Shown here: piece by piece, positions 12,273 to 30,435 of the stretch | Layout: each line of letters begins with the position of its first letter | Position numbering within the stretch: the stretch's first letter is position 1 | NCBI RefSeq assembly: GCF_014058705.1 | Contig: NZ_CP059692.1 | Coordinates: 1,679,001 to 1,743,000 of the forward strand | From: Aureimonas mangrovi | GTDB lineage: Bacteria; Pseudomonadota; Alphaproteobacteria; Rhizobiales; Rhizobiaceae | Length of the DNA: 64,000 nt | Reading direction: 5' to 3' | Translations under genes and position numbers: made by a program | The notes under the pieces: generated by a model | What the model was told of the DNA's origin: nothing | Database searches by the model: none | Seen by the model: only the letters and a program-made list of their open reading frames with translations

Positions 12273-12386
12273 GGCCGAAGACGGAGCTGCGGCGGCGGGA
12301 CCCAGCGCCCTGCCGCCGCCTCCGGCACACCTTCCATGAACGATGTCGTCCGCCGTCGGCGGAGACGAGACGGTAAGGACAGACCC

Positions 12387-13882: not shown

Positions 13883-15018
13883 CCGAGACCCTCTTCAAGA
13901 ACGCCTCCATCGTCCTGCCTGATGAGGTCATCCACGGCAGCCTGCTCGTGCGTGACGGTGTCATCGCCGATATCGCGTCTGGGGCTGCGGCCGGCGGGGG
14001 CGAGGACATGGGCGGCGACACGCTCATTCCCGGTCTCGTGGAACTGCACACCGACCATATAGAAGGCCACTATCTGCCGCGCCCGCGCGTGCGCTGGAAC
14101 ATGATGGCGGCGCTCCAGGCGCACGATGCGCAGATCGCGGCCTCCGGCATCACGACGGTCTTCGACGCCCTGCGCGTCGGCATGGACGAGGATGCCCAGC
14201 TCGGGTCCGAGGACATGCGGGCGATGGCCGACACGATCGAGGCCGCGAGCGAAGAGGGGAGGTTGCGCGCCGACCACTTCATCCACCTGCGCTGTGAGGT
14301 CTCTGCGCCCGACGTGACAGAGAGCTTCGAGGTGATCTCGGGCGGAAAGCGCGTTCGCCTGGCCTCGCTCATGGATCACGCGCCCGGCCAGCGGCAGTTC
14401 GTCGATCTCGACACGTACCGCACCTACTACCAGCGCAAGATGAAGATGACGGATGTCGAGTTCGAGGCGTTCTGCCACCGGCGCGTCGCTGAATCCGAGG
14501 CCAATTCGGCGCCGAACCGCCGCGCGATCGCGCAAGCGTGTCTTTCGGCCGGCATCGCCATTGCCTCGCACGACGACGCGACAGCCGAGCACGTGCGCGA
14601 AGGGGCCGAACTCGGTATCACACTGGCTGAATTTCCGACCACGGCCGAGGCGGCCGAGCATTCGGTGAAGGCCGGTATGCTGGTGCTGATGGGCGCACCC
14701 AATATCGTGCGTGGCGGCTCGCATTCGGGCAATATCTCGGCGGCCGCTCTTCTCGACAACGGCACGCTCGACATCCTCTCCTCGGACTATGTTCCGTTCA
14801 GCCTCGTCCAGGCGGCGTTCCATCTCGTGGAGAGCGGCAGCCTCGATCTTCCGGCGGCGATCCACCTCGTCTCGACCAATCCCGCGAAGGCGGCGCGTCT
14901 CGACGACCGTGGCGCCATCGCCATCGGCCGGCGCGCCGACCTCGTTCGCGTTCGCCGCGCCCCGGGGATGCCGCCGCTCGTAGCAGGCGTTTGGCGGGAG
15001 GGCGCCCGTGTCGCCTGA
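13879..15018 (+). CDS. phnM: PhnM, ribosyl-phosphonate triphosphate diphosphatase
   Basis: A 379-residue amidohydrolase-family enzyme that removes pyrophosphate from alpha-D-ribose 1-methylphosphonate 5-triphosphate, leaving the 5-phosphate that PhnJ cleaves. Metal-binding elements are ELHTDHIEGHYLPRPR (about 55-70), the conserved ASHDDATAEH (about 233-242) and SDYVPFSL near 300. Length and order are normal. Its N terminus overlaps DUF1045 by ATGA and its end overlaps phnN by 11 bp. Confidence 0.95.
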   Translation: MTETLFKNASIVLPDEVIHGSLLVRDGVIADIASGAAAGGGEDMGGDTLIPGLVELHTDHIEGHYLPRPRVRWNMMAALQAHDAQIAASGITTVFDALRVGMDEDAQLGSEDMRAMADTIEAASEEGRLRADHFIHLRCEVSAPDVTESFEVISGGKRVRLASLMDHAPGQRQFVDLDTYRTYYQRKMKMTDVEFEAFCHRRVAESEANSAPNRRAIAQACLSAGIAIASHDDATAEHVREGAELGITLAEFPTTAEAAEHSVKAGMLVLMGAPNIVRGGSHSGNISAAALLDNGTLDILSSDYVPFSLVQAAFHLVESGSLDLPAAIHLVSTNPAKAARLDDRGAIAIGRRADLVRVRRAPGMPPLVAGVWREGARVA

Positions 15019-15610
15019 GCCTCGGCCGCAAGACGCGGACAGTCCGGCCGCCGGATGCCTCGTGGCGGTGGTCGGGCCGAGCGGCGCGGGCAAGGACACG
15101 CTGATCGCTGGGGCAATCGCCGAGCTGGCGGGGGAGGACTGGGTGCGTTTCGCCCGCCGCGTCGTCACGCGCCCTGCGCACGCGGCCTCGGAGGACCACG
15201 ACAGCCTCGACGACGATGCCTTCGCGCGGGCCGAGGCGGCCGGCACCTTCGCCCTGACGTGGCGGGCACACGGCCTGCGATACGGGCTGCCGAGCGCCAT
15301 CGTGAGCGAGGTCCATAGCGGGCGGGTCGTCGTCGCCAATCTCTCGCGCCGCGCGCTGCCGGCGGCGGCCGCCTCCTTCGAGCGCATCAGCGTGGTCGAG
15401 ATCACGGCCGAGCCGGAGGTTCTCGTTGCACGTATCCTGGCGCGGGGCCGCGAGGACGAGGCAGCGGCTCGCAGGCGGGTGGCCCGCCGTGTCGACGTGA
15501 TCCTGCCCGAGCGATGCTGCTGCGTTCAGCGCATCGACAATTCCGGTGGCATCGAGGAGGCTCTCGGCGCGTTCGTGCGGCATTTGCGACAGGCGGGCGG
15601 ACAAGGCTGA
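15008..15610 (+). CDS. phnN: PhnN, ribose 1,5-bisphosphokinase
   Basis: A 200-residue P-loop kinase related to guanylate kinase. It phosphorylates ribose 1,5-bisphosphate to PRPP, returning the ribose scaffold of the C-P lyase pathway to nucleotide metabolism. Walker A is GPSGAGKDT (about 24-32); the lid-region segment RRVVTRPAHAASEDH is typical of the family. It starts at GTG inside the 3-prime end of phnM. It is the last recognisable gene of the phosphonate cluster. Confidence 0.93.
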   Translation: MSPEPRPQDADSPAAGCLVAVVGPSGAGKDTLIAGAIAELAGEDWVRFARRVVTRPAHAASEDHDSLDDDAFARAEAAGTFALTWRAHGLRYGLPSAIVSEVHSGRVVVANLSRRALPAAAASFERISVVEITAEPEVLVARILARGREDEAAARRRVARRVDVILPERCCCVQRIDNSGGIEEALGAFVRHLRQAGGQG

Positions 15611-16399: not shown

Positions 16400-16981
16400 T
16401 CAGTTGGCGGGGCAGGCCGTATCCGGACGACGAAGCCATCCGACCTGAAGCGCCTCGTCGAGCGTGAAGACACCGAGAGAGCACAGCTCATCCTGCGGTG
16501 GTGTGAAGCTGATCGAGAAGCCCGAATGGCCGGTCTCACGACCCAATGCGGCGTTCACATCTTCACGTAGAATGGAGGGCTCGGAGATGGCCAGCAACTG
16601 TCCACCGTGCCAGACGCCCACGAATGCGAGCTGTTTCTCCTCATCGCTCGGAACAGCCCAACCAGATATCGTCCCTCGGCTCGCACTGGTTGTGAGAGTG
16701 TCGACGTTTCCGAGGATCTGATAGTCGGCCGCAGGGAGGGTGATCCTGTCAGGACCACCGCTGTTGCCTGCAAGATGCCCGGCAAGTTGCGAAGGCTGGA
16801 TCCGGTAGGCCGGCGCGAGTTGTGCCGGGTCAGCGCCTGCTGCCAGCATGACAAGCCGCATCGCCGGTATCTGCGATAAATCAGCGGGAACCGCTAGCAT
16901 CGATCGGATGCCGACGACGTTGGCAACCGCCATGATTGCGACGATGACGACCATGCCGACCACGAGAAGGCCCCTGTTCAT
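16400..16981 (-). CDS. Membrane-anchored protein with glycan-associated beta-sandwich domain
   Basis: A 193-residue protein: one N-terminal membrane helix (about 5-27), a linker, then a domain from about residue 85. That domain shows the pattern G-x-I-S-G-W-A-V ... V-G-V-W-x-x-G-x-L-L ... R-E-D-V-N-A-A-L-G-R ... S-G-F-S-I-S-F, which I know as a small beta-sandwich module repeatedly attached to bacterial glycosyltransferases and surface-glycan enzymes. Here it is a separate protein facing the periplasm. Its ATG overlaps the stop of the DUF2142 gene (ATGA), so the two are probably partners. The catalytic role is unknown; binding of the acceptor glycan is a reasonable guess. Confidence 0.6.
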   Translation of the reverse strand: MNRGLLVVGMVVIVAIMAVANVVGIRSMLAVPADLSQIPAMRLVMLAAGADPAQLAPAYRIQPSQLAGHLAGNSGGPDRITLPAADYQILGNVDTLTTSASRGTISGWAVPSDEEKQLAFVGVWHGGQLLAISEPSILREDVNAALGRETGHSGFSISFTPPQDELCSLGVFTLDEALQVGWLRRPDTACPAN

Positions 16982-18309
16982 GCGAGTTTCCCCCGCAGTG
17001 AGGCATCGGGCTCATATGGTGGGCGCCGCCGTCCGAATAGCGAGGCGAATAGGAAGAGCGCGAATGGAAAGATCACGTAGAGATATCGTCCCTGCGGCTG
17101 CGGCAGGAGAGATTGCGAGCCGATGATGTTCAAAAGGATGACAGCGACTGACATGCTCCAGAACAAAACGGTGATCAACGGGACCCAAAGCGCCGCCAGA
17201 CCGTCTGCCCGCACTCTGACAAGCTCGCGCACCGATATCGCGATGCTGAAGAGGAAGAGCGCCGCAACCAGCGGGAAGAAGAATACCTCGTAGGCAACGT
17301 CGGGCAGAAAGACGTTCATCCACCCGAGGCCAAAGAAAAAGCTCTTCGAAGCGGTCGAGAGCCACCAGAGGAGGTTCTGGGTCTCGATCAGTGCGGAGGA
17401 GCAGTAAATGAAGCAGGGCGTTGTCTGATCCCCGATATGCATTTCGGTGAAGAGGATCTGCCCCTGAATGCCCGTGAACTCCCCGAAGTGAGCGTAGGTC
17501 GTACCCAAGGCTGGTATGGCGACAGCGAGTGCCCCGACCAGAGTAAGCGTCAGAAGACGAACGATCGGGAAGCACCTGACCGTGAGCCATTGGAACCCGA
17601 TCAAAGCGGCGAAGAAGACCAGCGCAGGGTAGAAATATATCTTCGATGACACGAGGAGGCCGCAGCTGAGGCCGAAGAACAGCATGGTGTCCGTGCGGGG
17701 ATTCGCGAGCGCCTTCAGGAGCAAGGCGAGCGACAGTGCCGTCACCGTCAACGCGAAAGCGTCGGCATTGAAGTAGCTGAAGAGGAAGGTCGCCTGCGGG
17801 ACAAGCAGGAACGCGACCGGGGCGAGATAGGCGAGAGCGCCACGAAGCCCCGCTGCACGAGCCGTGACAAGGAGCGCCACCGCGAAAACGGGCGCGAGAA
17901 GCCAGTTGAAGGCCCGCGCGGCGATGTAGCCGTAATTTTGCGGCAGGATGTCGGCGAACAATGCGGACAGTCCGGCCGCTCCCAGCGAATTGAGATAAGG
18001 CAGGCCGAAGTACCAGAACTGGTCTTTCGTCACCGGCCAGCCGCTCAGATCGCCTATGAACGGTTCTGCCGGGTCGACGCCCGGTGTCGGAACCGCTCCG
18101 AATCTGTAGAGATACTCCACCAGATACAGGTGCGTCCGCTCGTCAGGGGCACCGTGGAAAGGAATGACGAGCGACCACGCTACCACGAGGATGAAGAAGC
18201 AAGCCGCAACGATTGCGTATGGCACCGCACGCGCGTTGAAGGCCGGCGCGTTCGCTGCGGGCTGCGCCTCGACAATTCTGACTGGCGGAGAGCTTTCCAC
18301 TGATCTCAA
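16978..18309 (-). CDS. DUF2142 family membrane protein, probable GT-C glycosyltransferase
   Basis: A 443-residue integral membrane protein with about ten or eleven hydrophobic helices. After the first helix comes FHGAPDERTHLYLVEYLYR, an acidic first periplasmic loop with an E-R pair as in GT-C enzymes, and near the C terminus PQGRYLYVIFP, the Q-G-R-Y signature of DUF2142. GT-C proteins use polyprenyl-phosphate sugars on the outer face of the inner membrane. Next to GtrA and a GtrB-like enzyme it fits as the third, transferring component of a Gtr system. The TTG at 18309 is used; a GTG at 18300 is also possible. Confidence 0.8.
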   Translation of the reverse strand: MRSVESSPPVRIVEAQPAANAPAFNARAVPYAIVAACFFILVVAWSLVIPFHGAPDERTHLYLVEYLYRFGAVPTPGVDPAEPFIGDLSGWPVTKDQFWYFGLPYLNSLGAAGLSALFADILPQNYGYIAARAFNWLLAPVFAVALLVTARAAGLRGALAYLAPVAFLLVPQATFLFSYFNADAFALTVTALSLALLLKALANPRTDTMLFFGLSCGLLVSSKIYFYPALVFFAALIGFQWLTVRCFPIVRLLTLTLVGALAVAIPALGTTYAHFGEFTGIQGQILFTEMHIGDQTTPCFIYCSSALIETQNLLWWLSTASKSFFFGLGWMNVFLPDVAYEVFFFPLVAALFLFSIAISVRELVRVRADGLAALWVPLITVLFWSMSVAVILLNIIGSQSLLPQPQGRYLYVIFPFALFLFASLFGRRRPPYEPDASLRGKLA

Positions 18310-18325
18310 CTTTCACTTGGATGGC

Positions 18326-18721
18326 TTAGCGGCGTAGCAGCAGGCGTCCGACGATGAAGTTCGCGGCGGTCGTCGCGACCATCACCACGAGGATGCCGAG
18401 GCGCGGGGCGACGCCCGCGTAGGTCAACGCTTCCAGAAGAGCCAGGCCGAAGAGGAACATTCCGGCATAGCTCGCGCCGAGCGCGATGCGGTCGGACATC
18501 CCCGTGCGACCCCGCGGGAAAACGCGCGAGGGATAGACGATCATCACGAAGGCGATGCCGCTGGCCCATGCGAGCGCATAGGCCGCCTGATGCGGCACTA
18601 CGAACAGAAGCGCTTGGTAGACGACGAGAGTGAGGAGCGTATTCAGGCCCCCTGCTACGAGGAAGCGGGCGGCATCCGCCCCGAAAGACGTCCTCAGGCG
18701 GTGGAGCGGGCCCCCGCTCAA
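18326..18721 (-). CDS. GtrA family protein, probable polyprenyl-phosphate-sugar flippase
   Basis: A 131-residue membrane protein with four hydrophobic helices and the family opening F-L-V-A-G-G-L-N-T-L-L-T-L-V-V-Y, plus the later A-N-F-I-V-G-R-L-L-L end. GtrA proteins are thought to flip polyprenyl-phosphate-linked monosaccharides across the inner membrane. It starts at TTG in a 4-bp overlap (TTGA) with the stop of the WxcM-like gene; no better start precedes the conserved region. With the GtrB-like enzyme upstream and the GT-C candidate downstream it completes a three-part glycan-modification set. Confidence 0.87.
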   Translation of the reverse strand: MSGGPLHRLRTSFGADAARFLVAGGLNTLLTLVVYQALLFVVPHQAAYALAWASGIAFVMIVYPSRVFPRGRTGMSDRIALGASYAGMFLFGLALLEALTYAGVAPRLGILVVMVATTAANFIVGRLLLRR

Positions 18722-19701
18722 CGGCCTCGCCCTTCCTCCACGAGACGACGGAACTCGCTATAGTCGCGGATATAGTCCTCGCCCTCGTAGGGGCGCGAGG
18801 CTGCGACCATCAGGACGCTCTCGGGATCGAATTTGTACTGTACCCCCCAGACCATCGGCGCGAGATAGAGACCCATCGTCTGGTTCTCGAGGCGCACCTC
18901 GCGGCGATGCGTCCCGTCGTCCACGACCACCGACACGCTGCCATGCGCGGGCACGAGGAACTGTTCGCAGCGGTGATGAGCGTGTTCGCCGCGCACATGA
19001 TGGCTGGCGACACCATAAACGAGGAAGACGCGGGCCGGCGTGAAAGGGAGGCCGCGGCCCATCTCAAGAGGCGTCAGGCTGCCGCGCATGTCCGTGAAAT
19101 GCGGCAGGCGCTCCACGAAGCAGCGTCCGACGCCGAGCTCCAGGCGGCTGCCGATCGCACCACCCAGCGCGTTGCCCGCGATCGCCTCATCTTTTGCGCG
19201 CGGCGCCTCGCTGACGGCATTGTCCTGATAGCCGACGATCTTCGCCGGGTTGCCGACCACCGTGGCATTGGCTGGAACGTTGCGCGTGACGACGGCGCCT
19301 GCTCCGACCATCGCGCCGCGCCCGATCCGCACCCCCGGCAGGATCGTGGCATTGGCGCCGATCGAGGCGTCGTCCTCCACGACGGTCTGCAGGAACGCTT
19401 CCGGGTATTGCCGGGAGCGCGGGAAGCGGTCGTTCGTGAAGGTGACGTTCGGCCCGATGAACACACGGTCGCCCACGCGAGTGCCGTCCCAGAGCTGCAC
19501 ACCGCACTTCACCGTCACGCCGTCGCCGACGACGACGTCGTTCTCGATGAAGACATGGTCGCAGATGTTGCAGTCGGCGCCGATCCGCGCGCCCGGCAGC
19601 ACATGCGCGAAGGCCCAGACGCGCGTGCCCGCGCCGACGGTCTCGCTTTCGCAGAGCCCCCGCGGATGAACGAAGGGGCGGGTATCAGAAGCGGTGGACA
19701 A
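18718..19701 (-). CDS. WxcM-like bifunctional sugar acetyltransferase / 3,4-ketoisomerase
   Basis: A 327-residue fusion. Residues about 10-170 form a left-handed beta-helix acyltransferase with hexapeptide repeats (ARIGADCNICDHVFIENDVV in part, GRGAMVGAGAVVTRNVPANA, VVGNPAKIVGY). Residues about 190-320 are a cupin of the FdtA/QdtA type (DMRGSLTPLEMGRGLPF, GEHAHHRCEQFLV with the catalytic histidines). The same order occurs in Xanthomonas WxcM. The cupin would convert dTDP-4-keto-6-deoxyglucose to the 3-keto sugar; the helix would N-acetylate the product of the neighbouring aminotransferase, giving dTDP-Fuc3NAc or dTDP-Qui3NAc. I use the TTG with GAAGGAG 8 bp upstream; GTG at 19722, overlapping the upstream stop, is an alternative. 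Confidence 0.86.
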   Translation of the reverse strand: MSTASDTRPFVHPRGLCESETVGAGTRVWAFAHVLPGARIGADCNICDHVFIENDVVVGDGVTVKCGVQLWDGTRVGDRVFIGPNVTFTNDRFPRSRQYPEAFLQTVVEDDASIGANATILPGVRIGRGAMVGAGAVVTRNVPANATVVGNPAKIVGYQDNAVSEAPRAKDEAIAGNALGGAIGSRLELGVGRCFVERLPHFTDMRGSLTPLEMGRGLPFTPARVFLVYGVASHHVRGEHAHHRCEQFLVPAHGSVSVVVDDGTHRREVRLENQTMGLYLAPMVWGVQYKFDPESVLMVAASRPYEGEDYIRDYSEFRRLVEEGRGR

Positions 19702-19718
19702 ACCGGTCTCTCCTTCGG

Positions 19719-20714
19719 TCACGATTGCGGGTCGGAGGCAGCCTCGACGACACGGCTGATGATGCGCAGCGGGCGACGCTTGGTGTTCTCGAAGGTCCGC
19801 CAGAGATAAGAGCCGAGAATACCCTGTACGGCGAGGAGCGCCGAGGCGGAGAAGGTCATCAGTACGGCCAGCGCCGCATAGCCCGGCTCCGTCACGAAGC
19901 CGAAAATGCGCGCGAAGGCGATCACGAGGCCGACGGCGAGGCTCAGAAGGCAACCGAAGACGCCGAACCACAGGACGAACAGGATCGGCAGGTCCGAGAA
20001 GGAGAAGATGCTGTCCATCATGTAGCGCATGCGACGCGAGAAGTTCCAGGCGCTGGTGCCCTTCAAGCGTTCGCGCCGCTCATAGGGCACGAACCGGCGG
20101 CGGAAGCCGATCCAGAAGAGCTGGGCGATCAGGGAACTGTTCGGCTCCTCGAACTGGAGGACCGCATCGGCGGCCTGCCGGTTGCAGGCGAAGATATCGA
20201 CGCCGCCCTTCGGCACATCCTTGATGACGAGCTTTCGATAGAGCCACCAGAAGCCGTTCGACAACGCATCGCGAAGCGGTGAGTCATGACGGCCGGCGCG
20301 CTGCCCGAACACCACGTCCGCCTCGTCCCGCTCGAGCATGGCGAAGAACTCGCGGATCAACTCGGGCGGCTCCTGCAGGTCCGCCGCCATCACAGCCACG
20401 ACCTGACCGCCCGCGAGCTCCATGCCGGTGCGGATGGCGGTGAAGGAGCCGAAATTGCGGCTGTGGAAGGCGATCTTGGCGGAGAACGCCATGTCGTCGC
20501 GCGCGGCCAGCAGGAGCTCGCCCGAGCGATCCGGCGAGCCGTCGACGACAAAGACGACTTCCATTCCCCCCACGTCGCGATCCAGCGCGTTCAGAGCCTC
20601 GACGAGGTCGTCGATGTTCTCCTCGTTGCGATAGACCGGGATGACGAGCGAGCGGGCCGGCAGCACAGCCGGTTCGGCGAGCATGGTCGGCGAGGGGGCG
20701 GTCAGCTCTGCCAC
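19719..20714 (-). CDS. GtrB-like GT2 polyprenyl-phosphate glycosyltransferase
   Basis: A 331-residue GT2 enzyme of the GtrB/DPM1/ArnC branch. The catalytic domain begins SLVIPVYRNEENIDDLVEAL, has the donor-site FVVDGSPD, the NFG-type HSRNFGSFTAIRTGM and the DxD-equivalent AADLQEPPELI. Two C-terminal membrane helices (about 235-260 and 275-300) anchor it. Such enzymes load a sugar from a nucleotide donor on undecaprenyl phosphate. The gene lies between the aminotransferase and WxcM genes, so its donor is plausibly the dTDP-amino sugar made by them. It starts at GTG, overlapping the aminotransferase gene by 13 bp. Confidence 0.87.
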   Translation of the reverse strand: MAELTAPSPTMLAEPAVLPARSLVIPVYRNEENIDDLVEALNALDRDVGGMEVVFVVDGSPDRSGELLLAARDDMAFSAKIAFHSRNFGSFTAIRTGMELAGGQVVAVMAADLQEPPELIREFFAMLERDEADVVFGQRAGRHDSPLRDALSNGFWWLYRKLVIKDVPKGGVDIFACNRQAADAVLQFEEPNSSLIAQLFWIGFRRRFVPYERRERLKGTSAWNFSRRMRYMMDSIFSFSDLPILFVLWFGVFGCLLSLAVGLVIAFARIFGFVTEPGYAALAVLMTFSASALLAVQGILGSYLWRTFENTKRRPLRIISRVVEAASDPQS

Positions 20715-21823
20715 GAACCCAGCGCCTCGCAGACATGGGAAATCTCGTCCTCGCGCATGCCGGGAAAGCAGGGCAGCGTCAGGAGGCGCGGCACGCTCGC
20801 CCGCGCGACAGGCACGCCGCCCGGTGCCTCGCGATACGGCAGGTCGCGCCAGCCGGGCTGGTCGAGGTCAAGGACCGGGTAGTGAATATCGGTACCTACG
20901 CCCTTCTCGGTCAAGTGGCGCCGCAGCGCGTCCCGCTCGTCGGACAGGACCACAGCGAGATGAGCGACTGTGTCCGTGGACGCGCGCACCAGCGTTACGC
21001 CAGCGGGCGCCGCCGCCTCATAACGCTCAAGGACCGCCACACGGCGGGCGTTGGCTTCGTCGAGTTTGGGCAGGAGGACGGAGAGGATCGCGGCCTGCAC
21101 CTCGTCGAGCCGTGAATTGCGGCCGAAGGGCTGGCCGATCGTGTATTTCGAACTCCAGCCATACTGGCGCAGCGAGTTCGCAGCCGCTGTCAGCTCGGCG
21201 TCGGCCGAGACGATGGCGCCGGCATCGCCGAACGCGCCGAGATTCTTAGTCGGGTAGAAGCTGAAGGTCGCGATGTCGCCGAGACTGCCGACCCTGCGCC
21301 CCCCGACGCGCGCCCCATGTGCCTGTGCGCAATCCTCCAGGATCGCAACGTCCCTATGGCCGGCGTCGTCGAGGCGACGGCGCAGCTCAGGCACATCCAC
21401 CGCACCGCCGTAGAGATGCGTCGTCACCACGAAGGCGGTGTCCGGGCCGACGCAGGACAGGATCGAATCGAGCGAGGCGAGCTGGCTCGCCTCCTCGATG
21501 TCCGCGTAGACGGGAACCAGACCCGTCAGATGGCAGGCGATCGCCGAGTAACCGCCGGCGTTCGGCACCGTCACCACCTCGCGGCCACGCGGCTTGCGCA
21601 CCTCGACGAGCGCCCGGAAGGCAATCTCCAAAGCGTCCGAGCCGTTGGCGACACCGATGCACTGGCCCGCCCCGACATAGGCGGCGAACTCGGCACAGAA
21701 GGCTTCCGTCTTCTTGCCGTTCAGCCACCAGCCGGACGCGAGGGTCTCCTGCGCCGCGCGCAGCAACGGCTCGCCGCCGGACTCCAGAATGCGCTTCAGG
21801 TCATTGATGGGGATGTTCGTCAT
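20702..21823 (-). CDS. DegT/DnrJ/EryC1 sugar aminotransferase (FdtB-like)
   Basis: A 373-residue PLP-dependent nucleotide-sugar aminotransferase. The lysine forming the Schiff base lies in SFYPTKNLGAFGDAGAI, preceded by ILEDCAQAHGA, whose aspartate binds the pyridine nitrogen; GVANGSDALEIAFRAL near residue 57 is the phosphate-binding loop. It would aminate C3 of the 3-keto-6-deoxyhexose made by the WxcM cupin. The ATG at 21823 begins MTNIPINDLKR, the usual opening; the longer upstream frame is rejected. It is the first gene of the tight operon running to 16400. Confidence 0.88.
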   Translation of the reverse strand: MTNIPINDLKRILESGGEPLLRAAQETLASGWWLNGKKTEAFCAEFAAYVGAGQCIGVANGSDALEIAFRALVEVRKPRGREVVTVPNAGGYSAIACHLTGLVPVYADIEEASQLASLDSILSCVGPDTAFVVTTHLYGGAVDVPELRRRLDDAGHRDVAILEDCAQAHGARVGGRRVGSLGDIATFSFYPTKNLGAFGDAGAIVSADAELTAAANSLRQYGWSSKYTIGQPFGRNSRLDEVQAAILSVLLPKLDEANARRVAVLERYEAAAPAGVTLVRASTDTVAHLAVVLSDERDALRRHLTEKGVGTDIHYPVLDLDQPGWRDLPYREAPGGVPVARASVPRLLTLPCFPGMREDEISHVCEALGSWQS

Positions 21824-21958
21824 CTTCAAAATCCGGTTGCGGCTCGAAAACGGGTGCCGGCGCTGGCCCGGTCCGTCGACAGCCGGACTTGCCGTAGACA
21901 ATCCGGCGCGCTGAGGGCAGGGCGGCGATGCATCATGCAAGTGTTTTTCGGCTGGACA

Positions 21959-24280
21959 TTACAGGTGCTCAAGGGCGGCTGCCTCGGCTTGCCGATCTGG
22001 TTGCTTGCGTGCGAAACGTCCGATCCGCGGCGGGAATGCCGGAGAGTAGTCTGTGTAGCTGATCGACAGATTGACCGAATAATACGGGTCTCGCCGGATC
22101 AGAGCCGGCCATGTCGTCAGCATGTACTCGATCTCTCGATTGAAGCGCGCAATCTTTTCAGGGCTGTCCTCGCGACCGCGCGAGACGCTTTCCAGATGGT
22201 AGAGTTCGGCGAAGGGCGTGAAGACGTTGCGATAACCCTTCGTCATCACTTTCAGACAGAAGTCGACGTCGTTGAAGGCGACAGCGAGGTCGCGCTCGTT
22301 CAGGCCGCCGACCTCCTCGTAGATCGACCGGGATACCAGAAGACAGGCCGCGGTGACGGCCGAGCAGTTGTGGTGAACGCGTAGGCGACCGAAATATCCG
22401 TCGCGATCACGATGAAGGCGAAGGTGCGAATGGTTGGCAACGCCGCCGACGCCCAGCACTACGCCGCCGTGCTGGATGGTATCGTCCGCGTAGTAGAGCT
22501 TGGCGCCAACGCAGCCGATTTCGGGTTGAGCGGCGAAGGAGACCATTTCGCCGAGCCAGCCGGGCGCGATCACCTCGATGTCGTTGTTGACGAGGCCGAC
22601 GATCGAGCCTTTTGCTTCGCGCACCCCGAAGTTGTTGATCGCCGAATAGTTGAAAGGCTGGTCGTAGCGAAGAACGCGCACCTGCGGATGGTCGGCAAAG
22701 CTCTCGAACCAGGCAAGTGACTCCGGCTCAACCGAACCGTTATCGATGATCAGAATCTCGAAGGAACGATAGGTGGTCCGTTCGAGGATGGAACCGACGC
22801 AGTTGCGGATCAGTTCTAGGCGATCCCGCGTCGGGATGATCAGTGAAACCAGCGGCTCGGGAGAAGGGATTGCTGGCCTGTAGCGATAGAACGGCAGGCC
22901 CGCGACAGCTTCGACGGACGCACCGTCTTCGCAACGTGCGGCATGCTCCTGCAGAGCCTTCAAGCCGGCGTGGTAGGCATAGCCCTTCTCGTCACCCGAG
23001 GAGGCGGTCGAGCCCTCCACCGCACGCCAGTGGTAGAGCACCTTCGGGATATGGCGGATCTGTTCGCGCTGCAGGCGCTCCACCACCCTTAGGTTCAGGT
23101 CGTAGTCCTGGCTGCCTTCGAAGCCGCGGCGCCAACCGCCGACTTCGCGCACCAGATCCGCGCGATGGACGGTGAGGTGGTTGAAATAGTTCTGCGCGCG
23201 AAGCTGTTCGAGCGAGAAGTCCGGCTTGAAGAAGGCGTCGTAGCGCTCGCCGGTGCCGTTGATCTTGTCCTCGTCGGAGTAGATGAGACCGGCATCGGGA
23301 TGGGCCTCGATTTCCTGCGCAACCTCGAGGAGCGCGTGCGGGCGCAGAAGATCGTCGTGATCCAGCAGCGCGATCCATTCGCCTTTCACGAGTTCGAGCG
23401 CGCTGTTCGAGGCTTCGGAGATATGACCGTTCTTCGAGCGGTGCGCGACTGCGATGCGAGGTTCGCGCGCGGCATACTCGTCCAGCACCCTGCGCACAGC
23501 GGGATCGGTCGAGGCATCGTTGGCGATGCAGAGCTGCCAGTTGTCGTAGACTTGCGTCAACACACTGTCGATCGCCTCGCGAAGGAGCTTTTCGGGTGTG
23601 TTGTAGACCGGCATGAGCACTGAGATCAGCGGACGAATCGACAATGCTGCGGACTGTTCTGCGAACGCCGCAAGCTCCAAGGGCGTGATCTCGTCGTAAA
23701 GCGAGATCCATTCAGCATAACTGCGAACCATCGCACCTGCGCCATGGTCGACGGACCACTTCCGCATGGCTGTGCGAAGGCCGCGTATGCCTTCGCGGCG
23801 CAGCACTCCGCTCGCGCGGCCAGCCAGATGCAGAGCGTGGCCCGGCGAACGAACGCGATCGCGACCCAGGGTGACGAGCTCTCGGATCTGATGGTATCGG
23901 CGCGGCACGCGCACGATCGACACGCTCCCGAGGACGACCTCTCCGGGCCCATCGCTGGGGTCGAAGCGGAGGCGCAGGGCGCCCTTCGGCAGTTCGAATA
24001 CGGCGATCGACAGGCGCTCTCCGTTGAAGCGCAGATCGACGGTCTCGCCTTCGTTGAAGTCGTTTCCGCTGTCCACGTAGAGAACAGGCCGATGCATTGC
24101 CTTGCGGCCCTGCGGGGTTTCGACCCGCAGGACATAGACCCCTGCTGGATAGCTCGCAACGCCCTCCATGAGGAACGCGGGATCATTGTCCGTCATTCGC
24201 CAGGCAATGAAGCGTCCCTGCTCATGACCCTTTTCGACGTGGCTCAGCGGGTTCAGGACAAGATTGCGCTTCGTGAACAC
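21959..24280 (-). CDS. Tandem-domain GT2 glycosyltransferase
   Basis: A 773-residue protein with two GT-A domains. After an N-terminal beta-rich module (about 1-110) and a helical linker, the first domain begins LISVLMPVYNTPEKLLREAI (about 217) and has IALLDHDDLLRP as metal-binding DxD region. The second begins VSLIIPTRDRLELIRNC (about 480), with NNDIEVIAPGWLGEM and a catalytic NDVDFCLK. Such double GT2 proteins build two linkages of a surface polysaccharide, often with dTDP-rhamnose donors, in keeping with the rml genes just upstream. I prefer the GTG at 24280 (GAGG 8 bp upstream, 5 bp after rmlD); a TTG or ATG at 24331 would overlap rmlD by 46 bp. Confidence 0.84.
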   Translation of the reverse strand: MFTKRNLVLNPLSHVEKGHEQGRFIAWRMTDNDPAFLMEGVASYPAGVYVLRVETPQGRKAMHRPVLYVDSGNDFNEGETVDLRFNGERLSIAVFELPKGALRLRFDPSDGPGEVVLGSVSIVRVPRRYHQIRELVTLGRDRVRSPGHALHLAGRASGVLRREGIRGLRTAMRKWSVDHGAGAMVRSYAEWISLYDEITPLELAAFAEQSAALSIRPLISVLMPVYNTPEKLLREAIDSVLTQVYDNWQLCIANDASTDPAVRRVLDEYAAREPRIAVAHRSKNGHISEASNSALELVKGEWIALLDHDDLLRPHALLEVAQEIEAHPDAGLIYSDEDKINGTGERYDAFFKPDFSLEQLRAQNYFNHLTVHRADLVREVGGWRRGFEGSQDYDLNLRVVERLQREQIRHIPKVLYHWRAVEGSTASSGDEKGYAYHAGLKALQEHAARCEDGASVEAVAGLPFYRYRPAIPSPEPLVSLIIPTRDRLELIRNCVGSILERTTYRSFEILIIDNGSVEPESLAWFESFADHPQVRVLRYDQPFNYSAINNFGVREAKGSIVGLVNNDIEVIAPGWLGEMVSFAAQPEIGCVGAKLYYADDTIQHGGVVLGVGGVANHSHLRLHRDRDGYFGRLRVHHNCSAVTAACLLVSRSIYEEVGGLNERDLAVAFNDVDFCLKVMTKGYRNVFTPFAELYHLESVSRGREDSPEKIARFNREIEYMLTTWPALIRRDPYYSVNLSISYTDYSPAFPPRIGRFARKQPDRQAEAAALEHL

Positions 24281-24285
24281 TATGC

Positions 24286-25170
24286 TTACCTCGCCATCCG
24301 AGCGGCAAACCGCGCGACGCCGTTCTGCCAATGAGGCAGGGCGTGCCCGAAGACGCGCTCGAAGCGTGTGTTGTCCAGACGAGAATTGGCCGGGCGCCGC
24401 GCAGGTGTCGGATAGTCTGCCGTGGTGATCGGCTCTACATCCGCTGAGGCGCCACCCTGTGTCTTCGAATGGTCGAACACGGCCTCGGCAAAACCTGCCC
24501 AGGTCGTCTCGCCGCCTCCAGTCATGTGAAAGACCCCCCGCCAGTCTTGGGATGCGGGCGCCTTCGTGACGACCCGGGCCACGGCGATCACCGCCTCGGC
24601 GATGTCGGGAGCATAGGTCGGCGTGCCTTGCTGGTCCGCGACGACGCGCACGAGATCACGATCCATCGCCAAACGAAGCATCGTGCGCGCGAAATTGTGG
24701 CCCCAGGGTGCATAGACCCATGCCGTTCGCAGGATGACGTGCGCCGGGTTGGCCGCCTCGACGGCTTTCTCCCCCGCGAGTTTCGACGCGCCATAGACAC
24801 CTTGCGGGTCCGTCGGATCCGTCTCGGTGTAAGGGGCCGTCTTGTCGCCGGCGAAGACATAGTCGGTCGAGAAATGGATCACGGGCAGTCCGAGGTCGGC
24901 GGCGGCAGCTGCGACATGCCCGGCGCCGTCTCGGTTGATCGCGAAGGCGAGATCCCGTTCGCTCTCCGCTTTGTCGACGGCGGTGTAGGCGGCCGGGTTG
25001 ACCACGACGTCCGGCTTGTGGGTCGCGATCGCGCGGCGGATCGTTTCCGGCTCGCCGAGGTCGAGTTCGGGGCGGCCTATGCACATGACGGTGACGTCGT
25101 CGCCGGCATATTGCGCCAACGCCTGCGCGACTTGGCCCTCGCGGCCTGTCACGAACAGCTTGATGGCCAT
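24286..25170 (-). CDS. rmlD: RmlD, dTDP-4-dehydrorhamnose reductase
   Basis: A 294-residue short-chain dehydrogenase of the extended type, last step of dTDP-L-rhamnose synthesis (NADPH reduction of C4). It shows the Rossmann loop FVTGREGQVAQAL, the early DVVVNPAAYTAVDKAESE, the catalytic YGASKLAGEKAV (Y-x-x-x-K) and STDYVFAGDK. The start ATG at 25170 is one base after the rmlB stop; the longer open frame through rmlB is a shadow. Length is normal. Confidence 0.95.
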   Translation of the reverse strand: MAIKLFVTGREGQVAQALAQYAGDDVTVMCIGRPELDLGEPETIRRAIATHKPDVVVNPAAYTAVDKAESERDLAFAINRDGAGHVAAAAADLGLPVIHFSTDYVFAGDKTAPYTETDPTDPQGVYGASKLAGEKAVEAANPAHVILRTAWVYAPWGHNFARTMLRLAMDRDLVRVVADQQGTPTYAPDIAEAVIAVARVVTKAPASQDWRGVFHMTGGGETTWAGFAEAVFDHSKTQGGASADVEPITTADYPTPARRPANSRLDNTRFERVFGHALPHWQNGVARFAARMAR

Positions 25171-25171
25171 C

Positions 25172-26230
25172 TCAGCCGGCCTGTCCAAGGCGTTCTCCGC
25201 CATAGGCCTTCTCGCGGATCGGGCGCCACCAGGCCTCGTTGGCCAGATACCAGTCGATGGTCTTGGCGATACCGCTGTCGAAGTTTTCGCGTGGCTGCCA
25301 GCCGAGTTCGCGATCGATCTTCGTTGCGTCGATGGCGTAGCGCCGATCGTGGCCGGGCCGGTCGCGGACGAACTCGATAAGATCTCGATGGCTGGCGCCG
25401 CCCATGCGCGGCCGCTTTGCGTCGAGGAGGTCGCAGATCGTCTCCACCACCGAGAGATTGGTGCGCTCGGCGCGCCCGCCGATATTGTAGCTCTCGCCGG
25501 GAACGCCGGCGGTGGCAACAAGCTCGAGTGCTCTGGCGTGATCCTCCACGAACAGCCAGTCGCGAACGTTCGCCCCCTCGCCGTAGACGGGCAGGGGCTT
25601 CTCATGCAGCGCATTGAGGATCACGAGCGGGATAAGCTTTTCGGGGAAGTGATATGGCCCGTAATTGTTCGAGCAGTTGGATATGACTGTCGGTAGTCCG
25701 TAAGTGTGATGCCACGCCCGGACGAGGTGATCGGAGCCGGCCTTCGATGCCGAGTAGGGCGAGGAGGGGGCGTAGGGCGTCGTCTCGGTGAAGATGCCGC
25801 TGTCGAAGGGCAGATCACCGAACACCTCATCCGTCGAGATGTGCTGGAAGCGGAAGGCGTCGCGTGCCGCCCCCGGCAGCTCGCGCCAGTAGGCGAGCGC
25901 GGCGTTGAGAAGCTTGAATGTGCCGACGAGATTGGTCTCGATGAAAGCGCCGGGCCCGTCGATCGAACGATCGACATGGCTCTCGGCGGCCAGGTGCATC
26001 ACGTGGGTGATCGCCTCCTTACGCATGATCTCCAGCATCCGCGCATCGTCGCAGATGTCGTCCTGGTAGAAGCGGTAGCGCGACGAGCCCTCGGCCACGG
26101 CGACGGACGCCGGATTGCCGGCATAGGTCAGCTTGTCGACATTGACGACGGTGACGTCCTCGCGCCCGATCAGGTGCCGCACGACAGCCGAGCCGATGAA
26201 GCCTGCGCCGCCTGTGATCATGATACGCAT
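25172..26230 (-). CDS. rmlB: RmlB, dTDP-glucose 4,6-dehydratase
   Basis: A 352-residue NAD-dependent dehydratase giving dTDP-4-keto-6-deoxyglucose. It has the Rossmann motif [41 protein letters not shown] and [15 protein letters not shown] with the catalytic Y-x-x-x-K, plus [14 protein letters not shown]. Its product is the branch point of this locus: RmlC and RmlD take it to dTDP-rhamnose, the WxcM cupin and aminotransferase to a 3-amino sugar. It is 100 bp downstream of rmlC. Confidence 0.96.
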
Positions 26231-26330
26231 TGAAATTCCGTGTCCTGCTTGCGTGTGAGGCGCTCTGGATGCCCTGCGAGTACAAGTCGATCGGCCTTCC
26301 GCACGAAGCTGCGGTAAAGGGCCGTCTGGT

Positions 26331-26885
26331 TCAGTCGAAAAGGTCCGCCTCGGCCATCGGGCGTGCTTCCGCGTCCTTCTTCGACAACTGAAGGTCCTGC
26401 GCCGCCAGCGGCCATTCGATGGCGAGCTGCGGGTCGTCGTAGCGGATGTTGCGGTCGTGCTCGGGAGAGTAGAGATCCGTTACTTTGTAGACGACCTCGG
26501 TGCCGGGCTCGAGCGTCACGAACCCGTGCGCGAAGCCCTTGGGCACGAGAATCTGGTTCCATTTGGCTGCCGAGACTTCCAGCCCCACCCAGCGGCCGAA
26601 GGTTGGCGAGCCCTTCCTGATGTCGACGGCCACATCGAAAATCGATCCGCGCACCACGCGTACCAGCTTGTCCTGCGCGCGTGGGGCGAGCTGGTAGTGC
26701 AGCCCGCGCAGAACCCCCTTCGCAGCGGACAGGGAATGATTGTCCTGCACGAAGACGAGGTCGATGCCGGCCTCGGCCATCTTCTGCGCGTTGAAGGTCT
26801 CGGAAAAGAAGCCGCGTTCATCACCGAACTTTGCGGGTACGATCTCGAGCACGTCCGGGATGGCGAGTGGCCTGACTTCAACCAC
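26331..26885 (-). CDS. rmlC: RmlC, dTDP-4-dehydrorhamnose 3,5-epimerase
   Basis: A 184-residue cupin-fold epimerase. Signature elements are [40 protein letters not shown] with the catalytic histidine, [21 protein letters not shown] (in part), the substrate-binding [12 protein letters not shown], and the C-terminal [10 protein letters not shown]. It overlaps the end of rmlA by 8 bp, so both are translated together. The gene order rmlA-rmlC-rmlB-rmlD differs from the common BDAC order. Confidence 0.95.
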
Positions 26886-27756
26886 GCGGGGCCTCCGTCA
26901 GGCGGCGCAGATACGAGGCGTATTCCGTCTTGCCGAGCTGCGCCGCACGTTCCACGAGATGTGCATCGTCGACGTAGCCGAGTTCGTACGCGATCTCTTC
27001 CAGGCACATGACCTTGCCGCCTTGGCGATGCTCGATCGTGCGCACGAAGGAGGAGGCCTCGTGCAGGCTGTCGTGCGTTCCGGTATCGAGCCAGGCATAG
27101 CCGCGCCCGAGCCGCGCGACGTTCAACGTGCCGCGTTCCAGATAGGTGTTGTTGACGTCGGTGATCTCGAGCTCGCCGCGTGCCGAAGGCTGGACGGACG
27201 CGGCGATGTCGAGAACGTCGTTGTCGTAGAAGTAGAGACCTGTGACCGCCCAGTTTGATTTCGGCGCGGCGGGTTTCTCTTCGATGGCGAGCGCGCGGCC
27301 CGTCTCCTGGTCGAAGCTCACGACGCCGTAGCGCTGCGGATCGCTCACCCAGTAGGAGAAGACGGTAGCTCCGATCTCGCGCTCTCGTGCCTGGCGGCAG
27401 AGGGCGGAGAGCCCGGCTCCGTGGAAGATGTTGTCACCCAGGATCAGAGCGACCGGATCGTTGCCGACGAACTCGCGCCCGATGATGAACGCCTCGGCCA
27501 GACCGTTGGGTTCGGCCTGCTCGGCGTAGGAGAGCGAGATGCCGAACGCGCTGCCGTCGCCGAGAAGCGCCTGGAAAGTCGGTAGATCCCGAGGGGTGGA
27601 GATGATGAGAACCTCGCGGATACCCGCCAGCATCAAGACCCCCAGCGGGTAGTAGATCATGGGCTTATCGTAGATCGGGAGGAGCTGCTTGGAGACAGCC
27701 AGAGTCAGAGGATAGAGGCGCGTACCGCTGCCGCCCGCCAGAATGATTCCCTTCAC
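26878..27756 (-). CDS. rmlA: RmlA, glucose-1-phosphate thymidylyltransferase
   Basis: A 292-residue nucleotidyltransferase that makes dTDP-glucose, the first step of both dTDP-rhamnose and the amino sugar pathway here. It begins [20 protein letters not shown] (signature GGxGTRLxPxT) and contains [24 protein letters not shown]-type [10 protein letters not shown] and the regulatory-site [18 protein letters not shown]. Length is normal. It is the first gene of the minus-strand set, with a 566-bp region upstream. Confidence 0.96.
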
Positions 27757-28322: not shown

Positions 28323-29117
28323 ATGACGACTTTACTTCAAAACGCGCCGCTGACGCTCAAGCTGGCGCGGCGCGAGTTCGATCAGCGATTTCGGGGATCC
28401 ATGCTCGGCTGGTTCTGGGCGCTGATTGCTCCGCTCGCCATGCTCGCGGTGTTCTCGCTCGTCTTCGGGGTGATCTTCCAGTCGCGCTGGCAGCGGCCGG
28501 GCACCGAGATGCAGGCGGAATTCGCCTTTCCGCTGCTCCTTTTCTCCGGGCTCATCCTCTTCAATTTCTTCGCTGACCAGTTCAACCGTGCGCCGACGCT
28601 GATGATGGAGAACGTCTCCTACATCAAGAAGGTGGTGTTCCCGCTGGAGATCATGCCGATCGTCAGCATGCTGACGGCGCTCGCGACGGCCGCGATCTCG
28701 TTCATCGCCTTCCTCGTGATCTACGTGATCATGCATGGGGTTCCGCCCCTGACCATCCTGCTGCTTCCGTTCGCGGTTCTTCCGCTGGCTCTTCTCAGCC
28801 TCGGAATCAGTTACTTCCTGTCCTCGCTCGGGGTCTTCCTGCGGGATCTGAAACACGTCACGCCGCCCCTTTCGACGGCGCTCTTGTTCCTCTCGGCCGT
28901 ATTCTACCAGCCGGAGAACCTGCCCAAGCCCTACGACGCTATCGTCTGGATGAATCCGCTCACGCCCGCAGTCACGTACATGCGCGATCTGGTGTTCTGG
29001 GGGCGGTTGCCGGACCCCTTCGCCTACATCGCCTATCTCCTTTTCTCGATGATCGTGTTCATGCTCGGTTTTGCCTGGTTCAAGCGCACGCAAAAGGCCT
29101 TCGCCGATGTCATCTGA
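28323..29117 (+). CDS. ABC-2 type polysaccharide export permease (Wzm-like)
   Basis: A 264-residue inner-membrane protein with six hydrophobic segments and the amphipathic N-terminal helix LAWREF-like LARREFDQRFRGSMLGWFWA that marks polysaccharide/O-antigen exporters of the ABC-2 class. The sequence FLRDLKHVTPPLSTALLFLSAVFY is the typical re-entrant region before the last helices. With the ATPase that follows it forms the channel moving a lipid-linked polysaccharide to the periplasm. Its stop overlaps the ATPase start by 11 bp. Confidence 0.9.
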   Translation: MTTLLQNAPLTLKLARREFDQRFRGSMLGWFWALIAPLAMLAVFSLVFGVIFQSRWQRPGTEMQAEFAFPLLLFSGLILFNFFADQFNRAPTLMMENVSYIKKVVFPLEIMPIVSMLTALATAAISFIAFLVIYVIMHGVPPLTILLLPFAVLPLALLSLGISYFLSSLGVFLRDLKHVTPPLSTALLFLSAVFYQPENLPKPYDAIVWMNPLTPAVTYMRDLVFWGRLPDPFAYIAYLLFSMIVFMLGFAWFKRTQKAFADVI

Positions 29118-30435
29118 AGCCGTGATAGAGGCGAAGGGGCTGGGCAAGGCCTATCTCATCTACGCCAAACCTCAGGATCGCCTGAAGCAGATGATCTTCC
29201 GCTCGCGTCGGTTCTTCACCGAATACTGGGCTGTGCAGAACGTCGATCTGTCCATCTCGCGCGGCGAAACGGTGGCGATCGTCGGCCGCAACGGATCCGG
29301 CAAGTCGACGCTCCTTCAGATGATTGCCGGCACGCTCCAGCCGAATTCGGGAGCCCTCCGCGTGGAAGGCCGGGTCGCGCCGCTGCTCGAACTCGGCGCC
29401 GGCTTCAATCCCGAGTTCACCGGGCGCGAGAACATCCGCCTGTCAGCCGCGATCCTCGGCCTTTCCGGCGAGCAGATCGCGGCCCGCGAGCCGGACATCA
29501 TCGCCTTCGCCGGCATCGGAGACTTCGTCGACCAGCCGGTGAAGACCTTCTCGTCGGGCATGTATGCACGCCTCGCCTTCGCGGTCGCCGCCCATGTCGA
29601 TGCCGACATCCTGATCGTCGACGAGATTCTGGCTGTCGGCGACGCTGCCTTCACCCAGAAATGCATGCGCTACATTCACGATTTCAAGAAGCGGGGGACG
29701 ATCCTGTTCGTCTCGCACGACACGGGTTCGGTGAACGCCTTGTGCGACCGCGCGATCTGGATGGAGAACGGCCAGGTGCGGGCCGAGGGAGAGGCGCGCG
29801 ACATCACGCTGGCCTATCAGGCCGCACTCCACGGGGAGGCGGACGGCCAGACCTTCTCGATCGAAGGGCGGCGCCGTGACGCGCCGCGCCAGCGCCAGGA
29901 CGTGCGGCATGAGCTGATCAGTTCATCCGTGAAGCGCAACGACATCGAAGTCTTCGAATTCGATGCGCGAACGCCGTCATACGGGGCTGGGGGCGGACGC
30001 GTCGTCGACGTGACCCTGAGTTCCCTCGACGGGAGCAGCGGCGTGCTCGAGGGCGGCGCGGAGGTCCAACTGACGGTGGAGGCAGTAGCGGATCAAGCGA
30101 TGTTCAGCCCGATCGTTGGCTTCTTCGTGCGCGATCGCCTCGGCCAGAACCTCTTTGGTGACAATACCTATATCACGAACGCGCGCGCGCCACTCTCCCT
30201 CGAGGCGGGCGAGAGTTGCCGCGCTCGCTTCGTTTTCCGGCTGCCTTATCTGCCTGATGGCGATTATTCGGTCACTGTCGCCTTTGCCGCTGGCACCCAG
30301 GCCGAGCACGTTCAGCATCACTGGATTGACGAAGCGCTGACTTTCCGCGCCGTCGGCGGCGCTCACCAACAAGGATTGCTTGGTATCCCCATGCACGACA
30401 TCGAGATCATGGCCACGGGAGGTCGCGCCGCGTGA
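29107..30435 (+). CDS. Wzt-like ABC transporter ATPase with C-terminal glycan-binding domain
   Basis: A 442-residue ATPase. The N-terminal 240 residues are a nucleotide-binding domain with Walker A GRNGSGKST (60-68), the polysaccharide-exporter motif LLELGAGFNPEFTGRENI, signature FSSGMYARLAFAVA and Walker B ILIVDEILAVGDAAF. The remaining 200 residues are beta-rich (GGRVVDVTLSSLDG, ADQAMFSPIVGFFVRDRLGQNLFGDN in part) and match the Wzt carbohydrate-binding domain, which in O-antigen exporters recognises the modified non-reducing end of the finished chain. The start at 29107 is set by the family start and its overlap with the permease. The presence of this domain predicts a capped chain. Confidence 0.9.
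   Translation: MSSEAVIEAKGLGKAYLIYAKPQDRLKQMIFRSRRFFTEYWAVQNVDLSISRGETVAIVGRNGSGKSTLLQMIAGTLQPNSGALRVEGRVAPLLELGAGFNPEFTGRENIRLSAAILGLSGEQIAAREPDIIAFAGIGDFVDQPVKTFSSGMYARLAFAVAAHVDADILIVDEILAVGDAAFTQKCMRYIHDFKKRGTILFVSHDTGSVNALCDRAIWMENGQVRAEGEARDITLAYQAALHGEADGQTFSIEGRRRDAPRQRQDVRHELISSSVKRNDIEVFEFDARTPSYGAGGGRVVDVTLSSLDGSSGVLEGGAEVQLTVEAVADQAMFSPIVGFFVRDRLGQNLFGDNTYITNARAPLSLEAGESCRARFVFRLPYLPDGDYSVTVAFAAGTQAEHVQHHWIDEALTFRAVGGAHQQGLLGIPMHDIEIMATGGRAA

Follow-up and report, generated by a model that had tools for sequence, protein, structure and literature searches.

A wxcKLMN-type amino-sugar cassette with an exchanged last gene in Aureimonas mangrovi: a probable Gtr-type system

Six packed genes in Aureimonas mangrovi

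We analysed a stretch of 64,000 nucleotides from Aureimonas mangrovi (the window; positions 1,679,001-1,743,000 of a one-contig genome of 3,485,124 bases), in which six genes on the minus strand probably encode a Gtr-type system, that is, a three-component system that attaches a sugar in the periplasm. The original prediction had described a six-gene operon with overlaps or gaps under 20 bp, and all six open reading frames (ORFs) were found where it had placed them. By their coordinates and translations, with start codons of our own choice, they are packed with overlaps of 4-13 bp and a single gap of 16 bp.

The first gene (20702..21823, ATG at 21823) encodes P0006, a WxcK/FdtB-like aminotransferase dependent on pyridoxal phosphate (PF01041, DegT/DnrJ/EryC1/StrS; expectation value, E, 1.1e-78). 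It overlaps by 13 bp the gene of P0005 (19719..20714), a GtrB/WxcL-like family 2 glycosyltransferase (GT2; PF00535, E 3.3e-22) and candidate polyprenyl-phosphate sugar synthase, which in turn overlaps by 4 bp the gene of P0003 (18718..19722, GTG start), a WxcM/FdtD-like fused enzyme with an FdtA domain (E 6.8e-45) and hexapeptide repeats. After another 4-bp overlap comes the gene of P0004 (18326..18721, TTG start), a small GtrA/WxcN-like membrane protein and putative flippase (PF04138, 31.5 bits, cut-off 26.1). The 16-bp gap separates it from the gene of P0001 (16978..18309), a polytopic DUF2142-like membrane protein and putative transferase in the GtrC/WxcO slot. The stop codon of this gene is overlapped, by 4 bp, by the ATG start of the last gene (16400..16981), whose product P0002 is a small protein anchored by one N-terminal membrane helix. 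The family labels given earlier to the aminotransferase, the GT2 enzyme, the WxcM-like protein and GtrA were confirmed by Pfam; that of DUF2142 was not, its match (PF09913, 25.5 bits) lying under the cut-off of 30.1. A scan for promoters and terminators gave no signals above those of shuffled sequence.

The predicted donor sugar and its lipid carrier

The top solved relatives of the aminotransferase P0006 were 7b0d, entered as 'glutamine--scyllo-inositol transaminase' (3.3e-64), 2oga (1.9e-59), QdtB 3frk (1.7e-57) and 5u1z (3.7e-54); we take 2oga to be DesV and 5u1z to be WlaRG, both C3 aminotransferases. P0006 is predicted to place an NH2 group on C3 of a thymidine diphosphate (dTDP)-3-keto-6-deoxyhexose. 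Residues 18-327 of the 334 in P0003 align with the WxcM-like protein 4mzu (E 5.3e-97), and hexapeptide and FdtA cupin domains are both present over the full length, as in bifunctional WxcM/FdtD enzymes. P0003 would consist of an N-terminal hexapeptide N-acetyltransferase and a C-terminal cupin 3,4-ketoisomerase.

Such enzymes could make the galacto sugar 3-acetamido-3,6-dideoxygalactose (Fuc3NAc) or its gluco counterpart (Qui3NAc). The cupin domain of P0003 scored 94.6 bits against 2pa7, which we take to be FdtA, and 65.3-71.6 bits against the QdtA entries; its top matches were 4zu4/4mzu, the product of which is presumably galacto. Tyr17 and Arg97 of QdtA set the gluco versus galacto product. 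In the alignment, Arg17 of 2pa7 pairs with Arg213 of P0003 and His97 with Gly293, and a glycine at this second position is common to P0003 and 4zu4/4mzu. Because the cupin scores higher with 2pa7 than with QdtA, Arg213 is matched and the glycine is as in 4mzu/4zu4, dTDP-Fuc3NAc is favoured over Qui3NAc as the probable product. The presence of Gly293 instead of the histidine of FdtA counts against this assignment and speaks for Qui3NAc, as does the good match of the aminotransferase to QdtB, third among the listed solved relatives. A gluco product, with everything else unchanged, nevertheless appears unlikely to us, although still a serious alternative, in view of the same cupin scores and residue pairs.

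Among solved structures, P0005 is closer to 5ekp (sll0501; E 2.6e-42), which we take to be the GtrB structure of a published study, than to ArnC (2.7e-28). Hydropathy places two helices at its C-terminus (235-261 and 277-302), the arrangement of a GT2 polyprenyl-phosphate synthase of a Gtr system, and it is 47% identical to its counterpart in Xanthomonas hortorum pv. cynarae (locus L069). P0004, with four hydropathy helices and its match to the GtrA family, corresponds to the small membrane protein of such systems and is 35% identical over 115 amino acids (aa) to the L069 protein at the WxcN position. Homology supports the predicted roles of these proteins in donor synthesis and as GtrB and GtrA.

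The match to ArnC bears on a different destination of the sugar, namely lipid A/core or proteins (Arn-like modification or protein O-glycosylation) instead of an O-polysaccharide. Arn likewise couples amino-sugar synthesis, a GT2 enzyme, small flippases and a transferase of the glycosyltransferase C (GT-C) type. The better match of P0005 to sll0501 speaks against this, and no ArnA-, ArnD- or ArnT-type domain was found in the six proteins (Pfam, E 0.01); in addition, O-antigen-type rml, wzm and wzt genes adjoin the operon, and the studied Xanthomonas relative acts on O-antigen (PMC4878081). We regard such a destination as highly improbable, and an O-polysaccharide stays the preferred acceptor.

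A conserved cassette and a variable last gene

Relatives of the operon were taken from a second scan of genome contigs with five WxcM queries, of which the best 80 of 556 WxcM relatives were kept; because all five queries were Gtr-linked, the Gtr-linkage fractions given here lean upward. The aminotransferase, GtrB, WxcM and GtrA genes were adjacent in this order in 57 of the 80 loci (28 Alpha-, 14 Gamma- and 11 Betaproteobacteria, one of the Actinomycetes and three without class label; by phylum, 55 Pseudomonadota, one Actinomycetota and one Nitrospirota), which is far beyond chance. When counted more loosely, all three partners lay on the same strand at a distance of at most 4.5 kb in 63 of the 80; six of the remaining loci had no GtrA, two no aminotransferase, eight the aminotransferase only and one none of the three, and some contigs end nearby. 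The six-gene order proposed for a neighbourhood search was thus recovered for the first four genes; the 84 related loci contained no relative of P0001 (E 1e-5) or of P0002. The combination of a DUF2142-like protein in the last slot with an extra small protein is what is unusual in A. mangrovi.

Within the genus, P0003 was matched in four of 21 genomes at E 1e-40, its own included; its identity to the proteins of three genus genomes was 81, 74 and 73%, and to those of three Aureimonas loci 82, 73 and 72%. At E 1e-60, the only WxcM match among 385 genomes of the class was that of the window's own genome. WxcM matches were obtained in seven other genomes of the order, two of which (G245 and G105) hold the cassette. 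A plasmid of Phyllobacterium sp. A18/5-2 carries the aminotransferase, GtrB, WxcM and GtrA genes in this order together with a 708-aa membrane protein, and in plasmids of Sphingomonas aerolata and Aminobacter aminovorans the sugar genes are present and no GtrA is annotated.

Some arrangements depart from the common one. On plasmid AbAZ39_p5 of Azospirillum argentinense (L014, 9042-14828), genes for GtrB, WxcM, the aminotransferase and a 743-aa membrane protein are present and a small EamA/SMR-like protein replaces GtrA, so in this arrangement the flippase, too, seems exchangeable. In Cellulomonas the position of GtrA is shifted: in L102 it lies between GtrB and WxcM, and in L095 it lies upstream and overlaps the WxcM frame.

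A membrane ORF next to the cassette was found by a hydropathy rule in 50 of the 71 Gtr-linked loci. The set searched with Pfam comprised the window's protein and 54 proteins of relatives (52 of 56 listed, four short upstream ORFs being excluded, together with those of L013 and L014). GtrII itself (PF14264) was matched in 18 of these 54 at E 1e-3. The other families were Alg9-like (three proteins), PMT_2 (two), DUF6056 (two), YfhO (one) and ABC2_membrane (two), with flippase-like, LptF/G, acyltransferase and VTT families as singletons; at least 21 of the 55 proteins had no Pfam match, and DUF2142 was seen in the window's protein only (E 1e-3).

When the 50 slot proteins of at least 330 aa, the window's included, were compared by BLAST, they fell into 20 clusters, some of them not transferases; the largest, of 18 proteins, comprises 15 encoded after the cassette and three before it. 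In a quickly built tree of WxcM proteins, with 22 of its 77 inner branches starred, the 46 labelled rows in 19 classes require at least 23 changes of slot class, for which a floor of 18 was the sole yardstick. The largest class, taken as GtrII, and the rest change places eight times, the floor being one, and the Mesorhizobium rows L038 and L041 carry a different slot class amid GtrII rows. By clusters and tree changes alike, a variable third component stands beside conserved partners, as in Gtr systems.

A comparison within the genus gave the same picture. In Aureimonas altamirensis (L024) the aminotransferase, GtrB, WxcM and GtrA are 79, 79, 81 and 66% identical to those of the window, and the adjacent membrane protein (448 aa, a weak PMT_2 match, encoded before the cassette) has no BLAST match to P0001 at E 1. 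The sole alignment between the 64-kb window and the 21-kb L024 DNA is 18752-21826, at 73% (E 1e-10). The four donor proteins are alike and the adjacent proteins are not; the donor cassette thus behaves as a discrete unit that is paired with differing last genes, as is the rule in Gtr systems. The earlier proposal that dedicated enzymes for a dTDP-3-acetamido-3,6-dideoxyhexose lie between the Gtr components and feed a Gtr-type route gains support from the conserved order and from GtrII in the relatives.

The match of P0001 to PF09913 (E 7.3e-6) dropped to 19.7 bits in the genome-wide search, and because the score is under the cut-off we call the protein DUF2142-like and not a member by the Pfam criterion. 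A simple hydropathy rule gives it nine helices, with the sequence PDERTH (a DExxH motif) after the first of them and QGRY near the C-terminus. When P0001 was aligned with three DUF2142 proteins of the order, QGRY and the glutamate of DExxH were invariant, and the aspartate and histidine were kept in three of the four rows; the use of DExxH and QGRY as a membership feature for DUF2142 was our choice. DUF2142 matches occur in six of 297 genomes of the order, its own included, three of them over the cut-off. Relatives of P0001 were seen in its own genome only among 61 genomes, none was confirmed in the genome-contig collection, and none was found in plasmids (E 1e-3) or the PDB (E 10). As to a GT-C-type third component, the DUF2142 match is sub-threshold, and P0001 occupies the position that GtrII holds in the relatives; this position and the motifs suggest that it is the transferase.

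P0002 consists of a single hydropathy helix (1-27) and a soluble domain. Neither Pfam nor the PDB yielded a match to it even at E 10, so the beta-sandwich label of the original prediction is less secure than it was put. Weak hits, E 8e-4 at best, occurred in two of 60 other genomes besides its own, and its model (predicted local distance difference test score, pLDDT, 41.6) is confident only in about the first 20 residues. One tentative idea, which we hold to be doubtful, is that P0001 and the translationally coupled P0002 are the two subunits of one transferase and represent a new family of glycosyltransferases for 3-acetamido-3,6-dideoxyhexoses, in which P0001 would bind the lipid-linked sugar and P0002 would give a periplasmic acceptor-binding domain. 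Such a domain may, if this were so, be fused at the C-terminus of the longer adjacent proteins in relatives.

It might also be supposed that the donor cassette works as described and that the DUF2142-like protein polymerises a polysaccharide or transfers blocks of it, the real Fuc3NAc transferase being encoded elsewhere. Published accounts of cell wall loci in lactococci and streptococci treat DUF2142 proteins as putative polymerases or side-chain transferases (PMC12599335, PMC9746298). GtrA of Aureimonas fodinaquatilis (L025) is followed by an ORF that resembles an ABC-2-type exporter protein and has a Wzm match, and no large membrane protein comes after it; therefore an unlinked transferase is possible. 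However, the exporter beside the A. mangrovi operon is Wzm/Wzt, and pathways of this kind polymerise the backbone inside the cell (PMC11127046); moreover, the gene of P0001 starts 16 bp after gtrA, where relatives keep GtrII. A polymerase is, in our judgement, distinctly less probable than a transferase, and quite improbable as such.

The presumed acceptor, known relatives and meaning of the locus

Upstream of the operon lies a gene for a glycosyltransferase with two GT2 stretches (21959..24331, minus strand; PF00535, E 4.7e-47), which probably serves in backbone synthesis. Further upstream, on the same strand, lie rmlD, rmlB, rmlC and rmlA (24286..27756; PF04321 E 7e-102, PF16363 3.7e-85, PF00908 4.8e-70 and PF00483 3.3e-74), named from their domains and gene order. 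RmlB had been expected as a neighbour, and it is encoded there (25172-26230) together with RmlA, RmlC and RmlD; these enzymes are the predicted source of dTDP-4-keto-6-deoxyglucose and also of dTDP-rhamnose. Divergent from them on the plus strand are wzm and wzt (28323..30435; PF01061 E 7e-23, and PF00005 with the Wzt_C domain PF14524, E 1.4e-30), which would encode an ATP-binding cassette (ABC) exporter for the polysaccharide that presumably serves as acceptor. This adjacency of rml and wzm/wzt is compatible with Fuc3NAc branches on a rhamnan but is no proof of them.

We also noticed that a Methyltransf_24 protein is encoded directly after Wzt, which has a C-terminal carbohydrate domain (29107-31655), a possible chain-terminator pair. 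On the plus strand at 11277-15610, PhnD-, PhnE-, PhnM- and PhnN-like ORFs, judged by eye from the translations, have the look of phosphonate transport or use.

Taken together, we consider it likely that the operon combines a donor cassette of the wxcKLMN type with an exchanged transferase gene, the whole forming a Gtr-type three-component periplasmic system that probably adds Fuc3NAc to the O-polysaccharide exported by Wzm/Wzt. RmlA and RmlB would provide dTDP-4-keto-6-deoxyglucose, the keto group of which would be shifted to C3 by the cupin domain of WxcM; the aminotransferase would aminate C3, and the hexapeptide domain of WxcM would N-acetylate the amine to give dTDP-Fuc3NAc. The GtrB-like enzyme would transfer the sugar to a carrier lipid, presumably undecaprenyl phosphate, and GtrA would flip the lipid-linked sugar. 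The DUF2142-like protein, perhaps with the small anchored protein as a partner, would then attach the sugar as a side branch on a periplasmic polysaccharide, most likely the neighbouring Wzm/Wzt-exported one. The roles of donor synthesis, GtrB and GtrA follow known homologues; for the transferase, carrier lipid, exact sugar and acceptor we infer what fits the locus best.

Several observations weigh against this interpretation. The 80 loci were picked by similarity to Gtr-linked WxcM proteins, so the tally is biased to Gtr linkage, and even so there is no GtrB or GtrA at up to 4.5 kb from WxcM in nine of them. The cassette is sporadic, with a WxcM match in eight of 297 genomes of the order (its own included, E 1e-40), and in five of the seven other genomes WxcM has no GtrB or GtrA in the stretch read, one of these being a contig of 5.4 kb; the plasmid-borne WxcM of S. 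aerolata sits beside an O-antigen translocase. Rml genes exceeded the score limits in 22 of the 80 loci and Wzm/Wzt in 20, where 21 loci are shorter than 20 kb. Of the Gtr-linked loci, 21 of 71 lack an adjacent membrane candidate and some candidates belong to other families, which likewise swells the change count in the tree. P0001 is under the Pfam cut-off for DUF2142, and phmmer found no match to it at E 10 among the open frames of more than 150 aa in five loci that the DUF2142 search had yielded; over-cut-off members are present in three of these. With these three, hhalign gave a probability of 12.8% (E 0.0022) over 68 columns, and the single-sequence model of P0001 has a pLDDT of 46.5, which is unusable as fold evidence.

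The original prediction knew of no described system that has this combination with a DUF2142 protein as final transferase. We rejected this view: the first four genes correspond to wxcKLMN of Xanthomonas, an arrangement already in print, with the lipopolysaccharide (LPS) chemistry of mutants published (PMC4878081). In X. campestris pv. campestris (Xcc), region 3 of the LPS cluster was assigned to the N-acetylfucosamine (FucNAc) branches of a rhamnan O-antigen (PMC4878081), and wxcK and wxcN Tn5 mutants had no FucNAc and more rhamnose (Steffens et al. 2016, PMC4878081). These mutants are Tn5 insertions for which polar effects are not excluded, and FucNAc traces are mentioned for wxcN (PMC4878081), both points being further reasons for caution. 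The same paper describes WxcN as a small membrane protein without a clearly assigned function. In X. hortorum pv. vitians, transposon sequencing showed that the consecutive genes wxcK, wxcL, wxcM, wxcN and wxcO are needed for phage infection, which was confirmed with wxcK and wxcO mutants (PMC12573098), and in two Xcc strains an unrelated ORF replaces wxcO (PMC2238763).

Five Xanthomonas loci of our collection (L064, L065, L066, L069 and L085) have the matching order and a final membrane frame of 754-761 aa; as they came without gene names, they were equated with wxcKLMNO by gene order, domains and size. Homology to the A. mangrovi operon covers genes one to four, which stand in the same order (in L069 the aminotransferase is 42%, GtrB 47%, WxcM 59% and GtrA 35% identical). 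In L064, L069 and L085 the protein at the WxcN position belongs to PF04138 (E 1e-20 to 5e-20), the one in L069 (10794-11342) with E 1.2e-20. PMC12573098 calls wxcN a 'sugar transferase' and wxcO a 'sugar translocase'; because the WxcN-position protein is of the GtrA family, these names seem to have been interchanged. The fifth genes differ: P0001 has no BLAST match (E 1) to the fifth proteins of L064 and L065 and falls in a separate cluster, and in A. mangrovi a sixth small gene follows. Furthermore, the rhamnan precursor in Xanthomonas is guanosine diphosphate (GDP)-rhamnose (PMC4878081), whereas genes for dTDP-rhamnose adjoin the operon described here.

With the GtrA/GtrB/Gtr(type) systems of Shigella and Salmonella the operon shares a GT2 polyprenyl-phosphate synthase, GtrA and an exchangeable last transferase, and relatives of the cassette carry GtrII itself. 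It differs in its predicted donor, a dTDP-amino sugar with enzymes encoded in the operon in place of uridine diphosphate (UDP)-glucose, and in the DUF2142-like protein of the last slot. The three-component concept applies to ABC-exported O-polysaccharides, including those with galactose in Klebsiella (PMC11127046). The pentofuranose systems of Citrobacter youngae O1/O2 likewise add side chains to an ABC-exported O-polysaccharide and have donor-tailoring enzymes in the locus, but they use a MATE-family flippase, a polyprenyl phosphoribose synthase and a GT136 transferase, and the paper nowhere mentions an amino sugar (PMC11127046). The lactococcal and streptococcal DUF2142 proteins WpsI/WpsJ are, like P0001, polytopic membrane proteins and putative side-chain transferases or polymerases; in contrast, GtrA is not mentioned in the text of either paper on these rhamnose loci (PMC12599335, PMC9746298), and P0001 is only DUF2142-like. 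In the open-licence literature we found no paper joining Fuc3NAc with GtrA, and none with both wxcM and GtrA among the matches listed.

These comparisons recast wxcKLMNO of Xanthomonas as a Gtr-type system, in which wxcN, without clear function in the published account (PMC4878081), becomes GtrA-like. One amino-sugar donor cassette, spread over at least three phyla, has repeatedly been joined to different last genes, and swapping the last gene would be a simple route to altered surface antigens and phage receptors. With the A. mangrovi locus, in addition, it can be asked directly whether a DUF2142-type protein acts as a glycosyltransferase.

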